Assembly: GCF_013002715.1 (NCBI RefSeq)
Contig: NZ_JABENB010000002.1
Location: 434,001 to 498,000 of the forward strand
Reading direction: 5' to 3'
DNA from: Flexivirga aerilata
Lineage (GTDB): Bacteria; Actinomycetota; Actinomycetes; Actinomycetales; Dermatophilaceae
DNA length: 64,000 nucleotides
Below, piece by piece: positions 7,959-62,791 of the stretch (position 1 is its first letter; each line of letters opens with the position of its first letter). Made by a program: the position numbers and the translations under genes. The notes under the pieces are model-generated. The model was given only the letters and a program-made list of their open reading frames with translations. It did no database searches and was not told the DNA's origin.

Positions 7959-8647
7959 CGCTCACCGACACCCAGCTGCGCGACCTCGCCGAGCAGGGCG
8001 TGCGCGAGGTCGGTGACGCGTCCGCGCGGGAGGTGCTGCAGTGGGCGGTCGACTCCGGGTTGCGGCTCGCCGTGGCCGGCTCCATGCAGGACACCGTGCT
8101 GATCCACCTGGCCAGCACCGTCCTGCCCGGAGTCGACGTGCTCTTCCTCGACACCGGCTACCACTTCGCCGAGACCTTGCAGACTCGCGATCGCGTCGCT
8201 GAGCGCTACCGGGTCACGGTGCGCAACCTGACGCCTCGGCAGACCGTCGCCGAGCAGGACGCCGACTACGGCGTCGCCCTGCACGAGCGGGACCCCGACC
8301 TGTGCTGCGCGCTGCGCAAGACCCAGCCATTGGACGAGGCACTCGACGAATACGACGCGTGGGCAACGGGTTTACGCCGTGCGGAGTCCGAGAGCCGTCG
8401 CAACACCGCGACGGTCAGTTACGACGACCGTCGCGACAAGATCAAGCTCGCCCCACTGGCCGCGTGGACCGACGAGCACGTTGCGGCGTACATCGCCGAG
8501 CACGACCTGATCTCCAATCCGCTGCTCTCCCAGGGCTATCCGTCGATCGGCTGCGCTCCGTGCACCCGTCGCGTGCTCGCCGGCGAGGATGCGCGCGCCG
8601 GACGTTGGTCGGGCAGTGAGAAAACCGAGTGCGGGATTCACCTGTGA
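7955..8647 (+). CDS. cysH: adenylyl-sulfate (APS) reductase, [4Fe-4S] type
   Basis: A 230-residue PAPS/APS reductase. The paired cysteines C117-C118 (DLCCALRK) and C200/C203 (GCAPC) are the four [4Fe-4S] ligands that mark the assimilatory APS-reducing branch. The C-terminal ECGIHL holds the catalytic Cys (C226). The nucleotide loop is AGSMQDTVLIH, in place of the common SFGAED-like loop. It converts APS to sulfite and AMP using thioredoxin. Start and stop overlap sirA and cysC by 4 nt each, so it is tightly coupled. Because APS is reduced directly, the adjoining APS kinase is not needed for reduction and may serve PAPS supply for sulfation. Confidence 0.94.
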   Translation: MTLTDTQLRDLAEQGVREVGDASAREVLQWAVDSGLRLAVAGSMQDTVLIHLASTVLPGVDVLFLDTGYHFAETLQTRDRVAERYRVTVRNLTPRQTVAEQDADYGVALHERDPDLCCALRKTQPLDEALDEYDAWATGLRRAESESRRNTATVSYDDRRDKIKLAPLAAWTDEHVAAYIAEHDLISNPLLSQGYPSIGCAPCTRRVLAGEDARAGRWSGSEKTECGIHL

Positions 8648-9264
8648 GCGCCGACCCGAGCGAGGACACGAACGCAGTGAGGCCCGCAGCGAGGGACAGA
8701 GGCGCGACAGAAGGCATGCGCGGGGTAGGTGCGGGGACGACCATCTGGCTGACCGGGCTGTCCGGCGCCGGGAAGTCGACGATCGCGGAGGCGCTGGCCG
8801 CCGAACTCGCCGAGGCGGGGGAGCGGGTGCAGATCCTCGACGGTGACGAGGTGCGCACCAATCTGTCTGCCGGACTTGGGTTTTCGCGGGAGGACCGTAC
8901 GACGCACGTCACGCGTGTCGGGTTCGTCGCGGAGCTGCTGGCCCGGCACGGCGTCACCGTGATCGTGCCGGTCATCGCGCCGTATGCCGACGCCCGCGAC
9001 CGGGTGCGTGCCCACCACGAGGCGCACGGCACCCCCTATCGCGAGGTGTATGTCGCCACCTCCCTGGAGGAGTGCCGCCGACGTGACGTCAAGGGCCTCT
9101 ACGCCAAGTCAGCCTCCGGTGAGCTGACCGGCCTGACCGGTGTGGACGACCCCTACGAGCCGCCGGCCGCACCCGACCTCACCATCGACACCGCCCAGGT
9201 TGCCGTGCCCGCAGCAGTCGCCCGCATCCGCGGGCTGCTGCCCGACCTCCAGGAGTCCGCGTGA
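8644..9264 (+). CDS. cysC: adenylyl-sulfate kinase
   Basis: A 206-residue APS kinase, phosphorylating APS to PAPS. The P-loop GLSGAGKST is at residues 38-46 when the GTG at 8644 is used. It is followed by ILDGDEVRTNLSAGLGFSREDR, the APS-binding lid, and CRRRDVKGLYAKSASGE. GTG 8644 overlaps the cysH stop (GTGA), matching the other junctions here. The alternative ATG at 8716 would remove a 24-residue polar leader that is not part of the kinase fold. The stop overlaps the first of three tandem repeats (GTGA at 9261-9264). Confidence 0.92.
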   Translation: MSADPSEDTNAVRPAARDRGATEGMRGVGAGTTIWLTGLSGAGKSTIAEALAAELAEAGERVQILDGDEVRTNLSAGLGFSREDRTTHVTRVGFVAELLARHGVTVIVPVIAPYADARDRVRAHHEAHGTPYREVYVATSLEECRRRDVKGLYAKSASGELTGLTGVDDPYEPPAAPDLTIDTAQVAVPAAVARIRGLLPDLQESA

Positions 9265-9326
9265 GCACCCCACGACGTTCCTCCCCCGCTCCGCTCCTCC
9301 GGATACTTCGAAGGGACCCCGCATGA
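9261..9326 (+). CDS. micro-ORF 1 (21 residues) in repeat unit 1
   Basis: GTG start overlapping the cysC stop (GTGA); it ends in TGA overlapping the ATG of the next unit. The peptide is Ser/Pro/Arg rich and ends in LLRILRRDPA. There is no Shine-Dalgarno before this first GTG, so it would depend on coupling from cysC. Whether it is translated is unproven. Confidence 0.35.
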   Translation: MSTPRRSSPAPLLRILRRDPA

Positions 9327-9388
9327 GCATCCCACGAAGTTCCTCCCCCGCTTCGCTCCTCCGGATACTTCGAAGGGACCCCGCATGA
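9323..9388 (+). CDS. micro-ORF 2 (21 residues) in repeat unit 2
   Basis: ATG preceded by GAAGGGA six to seven nt upstream; 22 codons including TGA, whose TG is shared with the next ATG. It uses codons rare in this genome (AGT, CGA, ATA, CTT, CGA, AGG), five of them clustered near its end. Confidence 0.4.
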   Translation: MSIPRSSSPASLLRILRRDPA

Positions 9389-9450
9389 GCATCCCACGAA
9401 GTTCCTCCCCCGCTTCGCTCCTCCGGATACTTCGAAGGGACCCCGCATGA
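9385..9450 (+). CDS. micro-ORF 3 (21 residues) in repeat unit 3
   Basis: Identical in peptide to micro-ORF 2. Its TGA overlaps the cysD start codon (ATGA at 9447-9450), which makes it the last link of the cysC to cysD chain. Confidence 0.4.
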   Translation: MSIPRSSSPASLLRILRRDPA

Positions 9451-10361
9451 CCACCGTCATCCCCACCGCGACCGACGTGTCGCTGCGCGAGCTCGAAGCC
9501 GAGGCGATCGAGATCATCCGCGAGGTGGTCGCCGAATTCGACCGTCCCGCACTGCTGTTCAGCGGTGGCAAGGACTCCGCGGTGCTGCTGCACCTGGCCC
9601 GTAAGGCCGTCTGGCCGGCACCGCTGCCGATCACGCTGCTGCACGTCGACACCGGCCACAACCTGCCCGAGGTGCTCGACTTCCGCGACCAGGTCGTTGC
9701 CGAAGGCGGTCACCGGCTGGTCGTCGCCGAGGTCGAGAAGTGGCTGGCCGACGGCCGGCTCACCGAGCGCCCCGACGGCACGCGCAATCCGCTGCAGACC
9801 GTGCCGCTGCTCGACACGATCGCCGAGCAGCGCTTCGACGCCCTCCTCGGCGGCGCCCGCCGCGACGAGGACCGGGCCCGGGCCAAGGAGCGCATCTTCT
9901 CGGTGCGCGACGCGTTCGGCAGCTGGGACCCGCGCAAGCAGCGCCCCGAGCTGTGGCGCATCTACAACGGACGGCACGCTCCCGGCGAACACACCCGGGT
10001 CTTCCCGATCTCCAACTGGACCGAGCTCGACGTATGGCGCTACATCGCGGCCGAGAACGTCGCCCTGCCGAGCATCTACTACGCCCACGAGCGACCCGTC
10101 TTCCAGCGCGACGGCATGTGGCTCACGCCCGGCCCGTGGGGCGGCCCGCGCGGCTCGGAAACGCTGCAAACGCTCAGTGTTCGCTACCGCACCGTGGGTG
10201 ACGGCTCGTGCACCGGTGCCGTCGAGAGCTCTGCCGGCACCATCGCCGAGGTCATCGAGGAGATCTCGGTCAGCACCCTCACCGAGCGCGGCGCCACCCG
10301 CGCCGACGACCGGCTCTCCGAGGCGGCCATGGAAGACCGCAAGCGGGAAGGCTACTTCTAA
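9447..10361 (+). CDS. cysD: sulfate adenylyltransferase subunit 2
   Basis: A 304-residue PP-loop ATP pyrophosphatase-type subunit. The PP-loop SGGKDS is at residues 39-44, followed by LLHVDTGHNLPEVLDFRD, GGARRDEDRARAKERIFSVRD, WRIYNGRH and the C-terminal RKREGYF typical of CysD. With CysN it forms the GTP-driven ATP sulfurylase that makes APS from sulfate and ATP. The length is standard. The ATG overlaps the last micro-ORF stop and uses the Shine-Dalgarno in repeat unit 3. cysN follows after 2 nt. Confidence 0.95.
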   Translation: MTTVIPTATDVSLRELEAEAIEIIREVVAEFDRPALLFSGGKDSAVLLHLARKAVWPAPLPITLLHVDTGHNLPEVLDFRDQVVAEGGHRLVVAEVEKWLADGRLTERPDGTRNPLQTVPLLDTIAEQRFDALLGGARRDEDRARAKERIFSVRDAFGSWDPRKQRPELWRIYNGRHAPGEHTRVFPISNWTELDVWRYIAAENVALPSIYYAHERPVFQRDGMWLTPGPWGGPRGSETLQTLSVRYRTVGDGSCTGAVESSAGTIAEVIEEISVSTLTERGATRADDRLSEAAMEDRKREGYF

Positions 10362-10363
10362 AC

Positions 10364-11662
10364 ATGACGATCACCGAGAGCACCGCCACCGACGTCGCCT
10401 CGCGTGACCAGCTGCGGCTGGTCATCGCCGGCTCCGTCGACGACGGCAAGTCCACCCTCGTCGGCCGCCTGCTGCACGACACCAAGTCGATCCTCGCCGA
10501 CCAGTTCGAGGCGACGCTGCATGCCAGTCAGGGCCGCGGCGCCACCGAGATCGACCTCGCGCTGCTCACCGACGGCCTGCGTGCCGAGCGCGAGCAGGGC
10601 ATCACCATCGATGTCGCCTACCGCTACTTCGCGACCCCGCGGCGCAGCTTCGTGCTCGCCGACACTCCCGGGCACGTGCAGTACACCCGCAACACCGTGA
10701 CCGGTGCGTCCACCGCCGACGCAGCCGTCGTGCTGGTCGACGTGCGGGGCGGAGTCTCCGCGCAGACCCGCCGCCACGCGGCCGTGCTGTCGCTGCTGCG
10801 CGTCCCGCACGTGGTCTTCGCGATCAACAAGATGGACGCCGTCGACTGGTCGGAGGAGCGGTTCGCGCAGGTCGCCGACGACGTGCGCGACGTCGCCGCC
10901 CGAGTCGGGCTGTCCACGCCGGAGATCCTGCCGATCAGCGCACTCACCGGCGAGAACGTCGCCGCCCCCGGCCCGGACTGGTATGCCGGGCTGTCATTGC
11001 TCAGCGTGCTCGAGGAGTTGCCGACCCGCATCGCCGACGTCGACGAACCCTTCCGGCTGCCAGTGCAATTGGTGATCCGCCCGCGCACCACGGAGCACCC
11101 CGACTACCGGGGCCTGGCCGGTCGTGTCGCGTCTGGCTCGCTCAACGTCGGCGACACGGTCACGGCATACCCGAGCGGATCCAGTTCGGTGGTCGTCGGC
11201 ATCGACGGCGCCACCGGCGAGCAGAGCCGCGCGACCGTCGGTGACTCGGTCACCGTGCGGCTGGCCGACGAGCTCGACGTCGCCCGCGGCGAGGTGCTCG
11301 CCACCACCGTGCCGATCCGCACCACCCAGCAACTCGACGCCGTCCTCACCTGGCTCGACGAGCGGCCGCCCACCCCGCGGCAGCGAGTGCTGGTCAAGGC
11401 CGGGACCAAGACCACCCGGGCGATGCTCGGCGTGACCCAAGGCGTCTGGAATGTCGACGAACTCTGTTGGCAGGACTCGTCGGCACCCTTGCAACTCAAC
11501 GACATCGGCCGGGTGTCTGTGCAACTCGCCGAACCCGTCGCGGTCGACGACTACGCCGACCACCGGGCCACCGGTGCCTTCGTCGTCATCGACCCCGACA
11601 CCGGCGCGACGCTCGCGGCCGGACTGACCGGCGCCGACCTCGGCGCGCTCACCACTCCCTGA
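10364..11662 (+). CDS. cysN: sulfate adenylyltransferase subunit 1 (GTPase)
   Basis: A 432-residue EF-Tu-like GTPase. G1 is AGSVDDGKST (residues 22-31), with the switch region REQGITIDVAYRYF, G3 DTPGH, G4 NKMD and G5 SAL, followed by two beta-barrel domains. GTP hydrolysis drives APS formation by CysD. It ends near residue 430 without a fused APS kinase, consistent with the separate cysC. The ATG lies 2 nt after the cysD stop. Confidence 0.95.
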   Translation: MTITESTATDVASRDQLRLVIAGSVDDGKSTLVGRLLHDTKSILADQFEATLHASQGRGATEIDLALLTDGLRAEREQGITIDVAYRYFATPRRSFVLADTPGHVQYTRNTVTGASTADAAVVLVDVRGGVSAQTRRHAAVLSLLRVPHVVFAINKMDAVDWSEERFAQVADDVRDVAARVGLSTPEILPISALTGENVAAPGPDWYAGLSLLSVLEELPTRIADVDEPFRLPVQLVIRPRTTEHPDYRGLAGRVASGSLNVGDTVTAYPSGSSSVVVGIDGATGEQSRATVGDSVTVRLADELDVARGEVLATTVPIRTTQQLDAVLTWLDERPPTPRQRVLVKAGTKTTRAMLGVTQGVWNVDELCWQDSSAPLQLNDIGRVSVQLAEPVAVDDYADHRATGAFVVIDPDTGATLAAGLTGADLGALTTP

Positions 11663-60894: not shown

Positions 60895-61734
60895 GTGAGC
60901 ACAGCAGGGGAGCCCGTGCGCCCGGTCGCCGCGGATCCTGGCCCCAGCCAGCCCAGCCAGCCCAGCCAGCCCAGCCAGCCCAGCAAGGTCGACCTGGACA
61001 AGCAGGCCGCCGCGGTCGACGCCGAGCAGCCGCCCACCAAGGAGTGGTGGGACGACCCACGCATGCCCTGGAAGGGCAAGCCCGGCAAGGCCGAGCTCTG
61101 GTGCATCGGGTTGATCATCGCCACCGGCGCCTACGGCCTGCTCACGATCCCGGTGCGGCCGTGGATCCTCGGCAACTTCTCCGCGCCCGCCCGCGACTAC
61201 ATCCTCGCAGTCTTCAGCGGCTCCAACATCGCGATGGTCGACATCGGCGCGCTGATGCGGGTCGGTCAGCACCAGCCGATGTGGTGGGCGGCGCTGATCG
61301 CGGCCGCGCTCACCTCGATCAAGTTCGACTGGCTGTGGTGGTGGGCCGGGCGGCTCTGGGGGCGGGGCGTCATCGACATGATCGCCTCCCGCTCGAAGTG
61401 GGCCGGGCGCACGGCGCGCTACGCCGAGGGCATCGCCCGCAAGTTCGGCGGCCCGGCGGTATTCCTGGTGTGGTTCATCCCAATCCTGCCCAGCTCGATC
61501 GTCTATGCCTTCGTCGGCGACGCCCGGATGAGCCTGCGGAAGTTCCTGCTGATCGATTTCTCCGCGGGCATCGTCTACCGCGGCTTGTGGATGCTCGCCG
61601 GCTACCAGATGGGTGAGCCGGCCAAGGACCTGGTCAACCAGCTGGCGAAGTACAGCATGTGGCTGACGATCGGTGGCGTGATCATCGTCTTCATCGGCGT
61701 CTACCGCCAGCAGCGGCGGTTCGCCGCCCCGTGA
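60895..61734 (+). CDS. DedA family membrane protein (SNARE-associated/VTT domain)
   Basis: A 279-residue membrane protein. The N-terminal 65 residues are polar and include a Pro-Ser-Gln repeat tract. The core matches DedA: GLLTIPVRPWILGNFSAPARDYIL, a GRxWGRG-like loop (WWWAGRLWGRGVIDMI), the amphipathic stretch FGGPAVFLVWFIPILPSSIVYAFVGDARMSLRKFLLIDF and closing segments. DedA proteins act in membrane homeostasis and lipid-carrier flipping. GTG 60895 is the start; no Shine-Dalgarno is evident. Confidence 0.85.
   Translation: MSTAGEPVRPVAADPGPSQPSQPSQPSQPSKVDLDKQAAAVDAEQPPTKEWWDDPRMPWKGKPGKAELWCIGLIIATGAYGLLTIPVRPWILGNFSAPARDYILAVFSGSNIAMVDIGALMRVGQHQPMWWAALIAAALTSIKFDWLWWWAGRLWGRGVIDMIASRSKWAGRTARYAEGIARKFGGPAVFLVWFIPILPSSIVYAFVGDARMSLRKFLLIDFSAGIVYRGLWMLAGYQMGEPAKDLVNQLAKYSMWLTIGGVIIVFIGVYRQQRRFAAP
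60943..60978 (+). repeat. 9-bp tandem repeat coding Pro-Ser-Gln
   Basis: Four perfect copies of CCCAGCCAG, followed by a degenerate fifth, in the polar N-terminus of the DedA protein. It is in frame and prone to copy-number change. Confidence 0.9.
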
Positions 61735-62563: not shown

Positions 62564-62587
62564 CGCAGCCCGGTGACCGCGTCCGGC

Positions 62588-62679
62588 CGCGACAAAAGTC
62601 GACCCTCGGCATACGGACGCGCCGCGGTCAGCGCCGAGACCGGTGCGTCGCTATGCCGAGGGTCGAGAAACGCTCGGGA
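62588..62679. repeat. 92-bp palindromic repeat, copy 1
   Basis: TCGACCCTCGGCATA (62599-62613) and its exact complement (62652-62666) form a 15-bp perfect stem, preceded by GACAAAAG and followed by GAAACGCTCGGGA. A near-copy lies 112 bp downstream. It is located in the 273-bp gap before proA. Confidence 0.85.
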
Positions 62680-62699
62680 TCCGGTCGCGCCCGACCGCC

Positions 62700-62791
62700 C
62701 GCGACAAAAGTCGACCCTCGGCATACGAACGCGCCGTGTTCGCCGGCCAGACCGGCGCGTCGCTATGCCGAGGGTCGAGAAACGCTCGGGA
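62700..62791. repeat. 92-bp palindromic repeat, copy 2
   Basis: Same layout as copy 1, with arms at 62711-62725 and 62764-62778. The arms and flanks are identical to copy 1, while the loop region has diverged, as expected if the stem is under constraint. Confidence 0.85.

Follow-up and report, generated by a model that had tools for sequence, protein, structure and literature searches.

The window, by which we mean the whole 64-kb stretch of DNA analysed, contains a sulfur-assimilation gene set that includes cysC and cysD. The first gene of the set encodes a sulfite/nitrite-reductase-like protein that scores under every NCBIfam cut-off shown. The gene between it and cysC, which we presume to be cysH after the name used in the preliminary description, has overlap-type joints on both sides, with ATGA upstream of 7955 and GTGA at 8644-8647 behind it. 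The latter holds the GTG start of cysC within the stop of the preceding gene, and the start codon was assigned from that overlap. The stop of cysC, a TGA at 9262-9264, lies in turn inside the start of micro-ORF 1, and cysN passes the cut-off of NCBIfam TIGR02034. The gap between cysC and cysD consists of three 62-bp units spanning 9261-9446 (Table 1).

Table 1. Genes, repeat units and predicted RNA features at the cysC-cysD junction (window coordinates).
Feature	Position	Strand	Remarks
cysC (adenylylsulfate kinase)	8644..9264	+	NCBIfam TIGR00455, above cut-off
Repeat unit 1	9261..9322	+	carries micro-ORF 1 (9261-9326, GTG start, VSTPRRSSPAPLLRILRRDPA)
GAAGGGA, moderate Shine-Dalgarno-like site before micro-ORF 2	9310..9316	+	-5.3 kcal/mol; repeated at 9372-9378 and 9434-9440
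Repeat unit 2	9323..9384	+	carries micro-ORF 2 (9323-9388, ATG start, MSIPRSSSPASLLRILRRDPA)
Repeat unit 3	9385..9446	+	same sequence as unit 2; micro-ORF 3 (9385-9450, ATG start)
Imperfect stem of unit 3	9392..9440	+	predicted fold; UCCC-CGAAGUUCC paired with GGA-ACUUCG-GGGA
cysD (sulfate adenylyltransferase small subunit)	9447..10361	+	NCBIfam TIGR02039, above cut-off; ATG inside micro-ORF 3 stop

Tandem Repeats Finder reports the array with a period of 62, 3.1 copies, 96% matches and a score of 360, which together with the unit coordinates confirms the preliminary description of three 62-bp units linking the two genes. Units 2 and 3 are identical, and unit 1 has 4 mismatches to them over its 62 positions. 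Each unit opens at GTGA or ATGA with the next DTGA 62 nt downstream, placing every micro-ORF start inside the stop of the preceding frame. As had been noted, the unit length is not divisible by three; the frames of all three units are nevertheless free of internal stops, giving micro-ORFs of 21 residues apiece (22 codons with the stop) whose TGA overlaps the following start by 4 nt. With the outer joints formed by the cysC stop and the cysD start (ATG at 9447), the five reading frames joined by 4-nt GTGA or ATGA overlaps are thus as previously described. In the ORF list, micro-ORF 2 is subsumed in a longer open frame (9140-9388) and so has no entry of its own. The codons singled out earlier as rare are indeed so among 1,500 codons of four neighbouring genes: ATA occurs at 0 per thousand, AGG at 1.3, CTT and AGT at 2.0 each, and CGA at 3.3.

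No further copy of the unit was found elsewhere in the window (best other match 17 nt, E = 0.40), Rfam returned no family for 8200-10500 up to E = 1, and the cysC-cysD junction had no match in a plasmid collection. The window also holds a further tandem repeat at 62583-62791 (period 112, 1.9 copies, 90% matches, score 355) and a perfect 9-bp tandem repeat, CCCAGCCAG, at 60943-60984 (4.7 copies).

Searches of genome sequences revealed that the unit is a member of an interspersed, imperfectly palindromic repeat family and is not specific to cys genes. We examined the window's own genome (G000; 4.0 Mb in 6 contigs) and four other genomes of the genus (G001-G004), scoring at most 40 first-look places per genome out of 58 in the own genome and 56, 133, 39 and 74 in G001 to G004; among the places scored, matches at E <= 1e-5 numbered 27 in the own genome and 27, 49, 19 and 26 in the other four. 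Seven other own-genome loci were read initially, and a pattern scan of the fetched loci yielded 128 units in 117 arrays distributed over all five genomes. The pattern overlooked one unit in each of the arrays L044 and L021, and array counts enter ortholog pairs twice, for which the cluster counts given below correct. Because the query behind the 117 arrays extends from one ATGAGCA into another, and because no more than 40 places were scored per genome, the share of joints among these arrays is inflated. This flank bias is the reason why a count of 140 left ends and a search of one genus of family f34 were run without flanks.

Beyond the genus, searches with the same flank-biased query, in which few places were scored per genome, gave a match at E <= 1e-8 in 41 of 186 genomes and 15 of 53 genera of the taxonomic family, and a match in 12 of 394 genomes of a class-wide sample (three from the own family, eight from family f34 and one from family f27). 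The unit was found at none of 80 cysD loci of named genomes, where the left end of the unit gave three chance matches; at 52 of these 80 loci an open frame nevertheless ends in a stop that overlaps an in-frame start close to where cysD begins. In a genome collection that may omit near relatives, the best CysD identities were 75% (Mycobacteroides, Rhodococcus and Prescottella), with 69-70% for Knoellia and Phycicoccus.

The element has a preferred position relative to upstream stop codons. In 36 of the 117 arrays the stop of an upstream ORF (80 codons or more) precedes the core by exactly 6 nt, and in 64 it does so by 3-14 nt; no such peak appears at the right edge for genes on the opposite strand. 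By the signals that flank them, the arrays divide into 28 in which a DTGA stop is paired with an adjacent start, 3 in which the stop beside such a start is of another kind, 10 that have only a start, 34 that have only a stop and 42 that have neither; in the last class, no long ORF has its stop 16 nt or less from the left edge or its start 3 nt or less from the right edge. These 42 arrays, several of them nested in other repeats, count against the explanation proposed below. In the flank-free count, a TGA stands exactly 3 nt before the CA of the CACCCC motif in 28 of 140 exact left ends, a share that speaks for coupling through the exact position and against it through its size; by genome, the proportion is 11 of 20 (own), 2 of 18 (G001), 4 of 63 (G002), 9 of 23 (G003) and 2 of 16 (G004). 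The element is not confined to joints. The preliminary description had named wide occurrence at sites unrelated to gene junctions as a refuting outcome, and the 42 arrays just described speak against a device dedicated to the cys genes, which is not supported.

Next to gene starts, the geometry of the joint is kept. An adjacent start, defined as an ORF of at least 70 codons beginning no more than 3 nt from the right edge of the array, is present in 41 of the 117 arrays, and in 34 of them, including L170 with its TTG micro-ORF start as a weak member, the stop of the last unit's micro-ORF overlaps that start as ATGA, GTGA or TAATG. When the arrays are grouped by the relatedness of their downstream genes, the joint is present in 28 of 35 clusters, against an expectation of one third (P = 2e-8), in a scan that tried any ATG, GTG or TTG lying 13 to 4 nt before the last core and kept the best one, which mildly favours a fit. 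The other seven arrays comprise four in-frame fusions (L173, L175, L240 and L245) and three with neither arrangement (L028, L046 and L058), which break the joint rule despite a gene start and likewise count against the explanation proposed below. The fit is reached by several routes: cores of 54 nt are combined with the linker ATGAGCA plus one base, and cores of 52 nt with ATGATCA or ATGAAGATCA; L178 uses the third frame, bringing all three reading frames into use across the arrays. Copies of the same element accordingly encode differing peptides (STPRSSSPASLLRILREDPA, ITPRSSPLLRRSDTSRGPR and RDHPTKFSPAPLLRYFARTPE). Such differences in frame, linker and core length indicate that the joint geometry is conserved and the peptide is not.

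The same relationship recurs outside the genus. The flank-biased query gave seven loci in genera of the own family other than this one; six fit the joint, and L306 could not be oriented. Among 16 loci from families f34 and f27, where the f34 cores measure about 57 to 63 nt, 13 fit; L310 is fused, L312 (f27) has no joint, and L315, which is not among the 13, may fit through a GTG. When 13 genomes of one f34 genus were searched with a flank-free pattern, 12 copies came to light in 5 of them; one copy, L325, is the same place as L317 in the 16-locus set. A DTGA start precedes the core in all 12, and 8 fit exactly; L328 ends 5 nt inside the next gene, and L327, L332 and L335 continue in frame. The earlier suggestion of a mobile intergenic repeat whose ends merely happen to carry start and stop signals is therefore supported in its first part, given the dispersal over genome and genus and the junctions found both empty and filled (below), and fails in its second, as the joint is exact far above one third and is built with other frames and lengths in another family. 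At L031, L175, L240, L327 and L335 the element apparently extends the N-terminus of a protein in frame, being read as coding sequence.

To our own cysC-cysD junction, with its three units, correspond a bare ATGA overlap in G002 and a single unit in G003, so that a search of relatives for the unit, its copy number and its position relative to start codons, as the preliminary description had envisaged, recovered 0, 1 and 3 units across species. In G001 a different gene precedes cysD, and the match in G004 is a more distant cysD (72%) preceded by other DNA. The G003 unit and unit 2 match at all but 1 of 62 positions, which makes local multiplication of one older unit likely. We compared seven further own-genome junctions across the congeners, five of which carry gene names that we assigned by recognition. 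At the presumed hemA-hemC junction, two units in the own genome correspond to empty sites in G003 and G004, and G002 and G001 carry oppositely oriented elements there (L273 in G002; L274 and L279 in G001, which has more than one). A presumed sugar-permease pair has one unit in the own genome and is empty in G003, G002 and G004. The junction we take to be nuoG-nuoH holds two units in the own genome and one in G003, and is empty in G001, G002 and G004; that taken as hutF-hutI likewise holds two and one, with a unit of another subtype in G001 and empty sites in G002 and G004. The putative thyA-dfrA junction has one unit in the own genome, none in G001 or G004, a different short sequence in G003 and, in G002, a nested element (one inside another) at the thyA stop. 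The L005 joint has one unit in the own genome and one in G003, with none in G001, G002 or G004. The L044 joint has three units in the own genome; its G003 relative, possibly a paralogue at 78-82% identity, has none. Unit number thus varies between 0, 1 and 2 at two junctions besides cysC-cysD. These comparisons show that copies have been gained or lost and that some joints have been struck in several species.

How the element enters such sites is suggested by its flanks. At coupled joints, the left DTGA and linker match the start of the element's own downstream gene at 193 of 330 positions, against 163.3 +/- 5.5 in shuffled pairings, none of 5000 of which scored as high. The match is exact over five positions in 12 of 55 hand-chosen pairs of linker and gene start (shuffled, 5.9), and at L239 ATGAAGATCACCCC flanks the element on both sides. 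Omitted from this test were L007, L203, L205, L027, L038, L170, L028, L046, L058, L173, L175, L240, L245, L306, L310, L312, L315, L321, L325, L327 and L332. Among the 86 arrays not coupled on both sides, flank matches of at least 5 nt occur in 12 (shuffled mean 4.2); since 8 of these are tandem or nested and 3 lie at a start codon, leaving 1, a general target-site duplication is not established outside coupled joints. A longer element with the same ends (at most 1 mismatch on the left and 2 on the right) was looked for in 20 regions, each 5-9 kb long and containing a left end, and none was found. The Y1 transposase (PF01797) was found in none of the 5 genus genomes, with a control positive in 5 of 14 known genomes, and it was rejected as the mobilising enzyme. 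That these searches yielded no candidate for such an enzyme counts against the explanation proposed below, as does the lack of a general target-site duplication.

The preliminary description had assigned a Shine-Dalgarno sequence to each unit. The sequence is present, and its strength is only moderate: energies were computed against an anti-Shine-Dalgarno sequence, and random 20-mers from the window have a median of -3.5 kcal/mol, with the best tenth at or below -7.1. A stronger site (-6.9 kcal/mol) precedes micro-ORF 1 rather than cysD, whose own site has -5.3 kcal/mol here as opposed to -8.7 at the empty junction of a congener. The right arm of the unit 3 stem overlaps the Shine-Dalgarno sequence of cysD, in line with the stem of the family, in which CCCC-CGAAGT pairs with ACTTCG-GGGG and the right arm includes the Shine-Dalgarno sequence of the next frame. 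Stem pairs change on both sides in 9 cells, a value reached by 0 of 500 shuffles, in an alignment of 18 rows chosen by hand so as to span the variation. The folding energy of the cysC-cysD unit is at shuffle level (z -0.46; two units, -0.55), which counts against a role for the stem, and one of three consensus-like units folds better than its shuffles (z -2.35). The effect of the stem at cysD may be small.

Given these properties, we consider it likely that all three units represent a mobile repeat, non-autonomous, interspersed and imperfectly palindromic, whose way of working resembles that of the mycobacterial MIRU; this judgement covers the entire explanation with its proposed steps. The element would enter the first codons of a gene whose start sits in an upstream stop (DTGA), and its insertion would duplicate the start region, as the likeness of linkers to their own downstream gene starts suggests. 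The left copy of the start would become the start of the micro-ORF and retain the old Shine-Dalgarno sequence, with the right copy remaining the start of the gene. Ribosomes leaving cysC would translate the micro-ORFs successively and then reinitiate at cysD; at each step the translating ribosome would open the stem whose right arm covers the next Shine-Dalgarno sequence, and stop on the next start codon. Translation of the next gene would thus depend on that of the preceding one, as with a bare ATGA joint. Selection would discard insertions of a length that breaks the relay and keep those that hand ribosomes on or fuse in frame. In our best reading, preservation of translational coupling is what allows the element to persist at operon joints. 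A function for the micro-ORF peptide is improbable, and cysD is probably affected only mildly.

Several other explanations account for parts of these data. Unit number could itself be selected as a means of setting the CysC:CysD(N) ratio, with relay steps losing or gaining ribosomes. This is close to the first reading in the preliminary description, in which the array may tune cysDN against cysHC or copy-number change may adjust the ratio. The 0, 1 and 3 units in three species are consistent with such tuning, as are the weaker Shine-Dalgarno sequence of cysD relative to the empty site and the identity of units 2 and 3, which indicates a recent change in copy number; however, the same element lies at many unrelated genes and in joint-free places, and a specificity for cys genes is not apparent. 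We regard this explanation as unlikely. A stem following a stop codon could also act as a termination or stability structure by itself, making the micro-ORF incidental. This would suit the covariation of the stem and the 34 of 117 arrays that have an upstream stop without an adjacent start, and PMC7518266 describes reinitiation as governed by structures directly after stop codons. Yet it leaves unexplained the modulo-3 fit of the micro-ORF and the rebuilding of that fit in another family, and the folding energy of the cysC-cysD unit is not unusual, which together make this account quite improbable.

The two remaining alternatives have very little probability in our estimation. Functional 21-residue peptides would agree with frames that stay open in three units, but the other frames yield unrelated peptides among copies of one element, and the codons are rare; we rejected a peptide function because the frames differ between copies. 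Equally improbable is that the cysD start region was simply duplicated in tandem on the spot, without any mobile element. Such duplication accounts for the step from one unit to three, given identical units 2 and 3 and a G003 unit that is a near-copy of unit 2, but not for the first unit, which is absent at the G002 junction and present at unrelated junctions; as a full explanation it is refuted by the dispersal of the unit and by the empty G002 site.

A mobile repeat that preserves coupling has a precedent in the MIRUs, for which PMC12548453, PMC4213456 and PMC2734929 cite Supply et al. 1997. According to these sources, MIRUs are apparently mobile units that sit at start codons and carry an ORF coupled to the gene at -4 nt, probably with minimal impact on it (PMC12548453); three identical 77-bp MIRUs lie at senX3-regX3 of H37Rv (PMC4213456); and copy number varies, with proposed functions that include differential translation within an operon and an exact function that is poorly understood (PMC2734929). 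Our element shares with them the form of short dispersed mobile units, a unit ORF overlapping the flanking stop and start at -4 nt, insertion at DTGA as seen from empty and filled junctions, and tandem copies of varying number. The triple MIRU of senX3-regX3 is a close parallel to the three cysC-cysD units. The element differs in its 52-54 nt core (57 nt and more in f34), its covarying stem, its many copies off joints and its non-mycobacterial host genomes. To our knowledge, MIRUs have no dyad symmetry. We would file the element as MIRU-like and not as a MIRU, a comparison by way of living and not by sequence.

Likenesses to other systems are more partial. Small bacterial MITEs and palindromic repeats, such as ERIC, RUP, RPE, YPAL and others treated in PMC2229807, are similarly small, palindromic and non-autonomous, with some frames fused to genes and with empty and filled sites. 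In contrast to these, the present element is retained where start and stop overlap, with a relay micro-ORF that fits exactly, and a general target-site duplication is not established for it. REP-type palindromes, which are associated with Y1/RAYT transposases, are short, lie close behind stop codons and are sometimes tandem. Our element resembles them in these respects and differs in the lack of a Y1 transposase in 5 of 5 genomes and in the micro-ORF joint. Bicistronic design leaders, in which a short ORF delivers the ribosome through an overlapping stop and start (mentioned in PMC12548453; see also PMC10367133), are engineered, whereas this element is dispersed and natural. A search of open-licence literature, with most subscription journals outside its scope, found no paper on the unit or on MIRU-like elements outside mycobacteria.

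In the literature cited here, the MIRU is mobile DNA hidden in translational coupling that is described in mycobacteria only. An element with this way of life in other actinobacteria, which has many copies as well as empty sites and natural length variants, offers natural experiments (0 to 3 units, different frames, the same genes) that could measure the cost and tuning of a leader cistron and whether selection protects coupling. For annotation, micro-ORFs at such junctions are parts of a repeat and do not necessarily represent small proteins. We also raise, tentatively and with some doubt, a more general possibility: palindromic mobile repeats in several actinobacterial families might be transferable relay elements that prefer gene starts, duplicate the start region and add a translated leader cistron, with the combinations of core length, linker and frame that maintain the -4 joint reached separately in different lineages. 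Such an element would be a MIRU analogue of separate origin, in which the stem makes the steps translation-dependent and unit number is an evolvable dial on the ratio of neighbouring products.

A second repeat type, GGTCTCGATACG ... CTACTCGACC, was observed at L033, L035, L036 and L037 on contigs C2 and C3 of the own genome; it has the inner core CCTCCCCCGCTKCGCTCCTCCGG in common with the loop of the unit, and its ends are different. In G002, the copies L080, L171, L176, L181, L193 and L199 are nested in other repeats, mostly at the same loop position.
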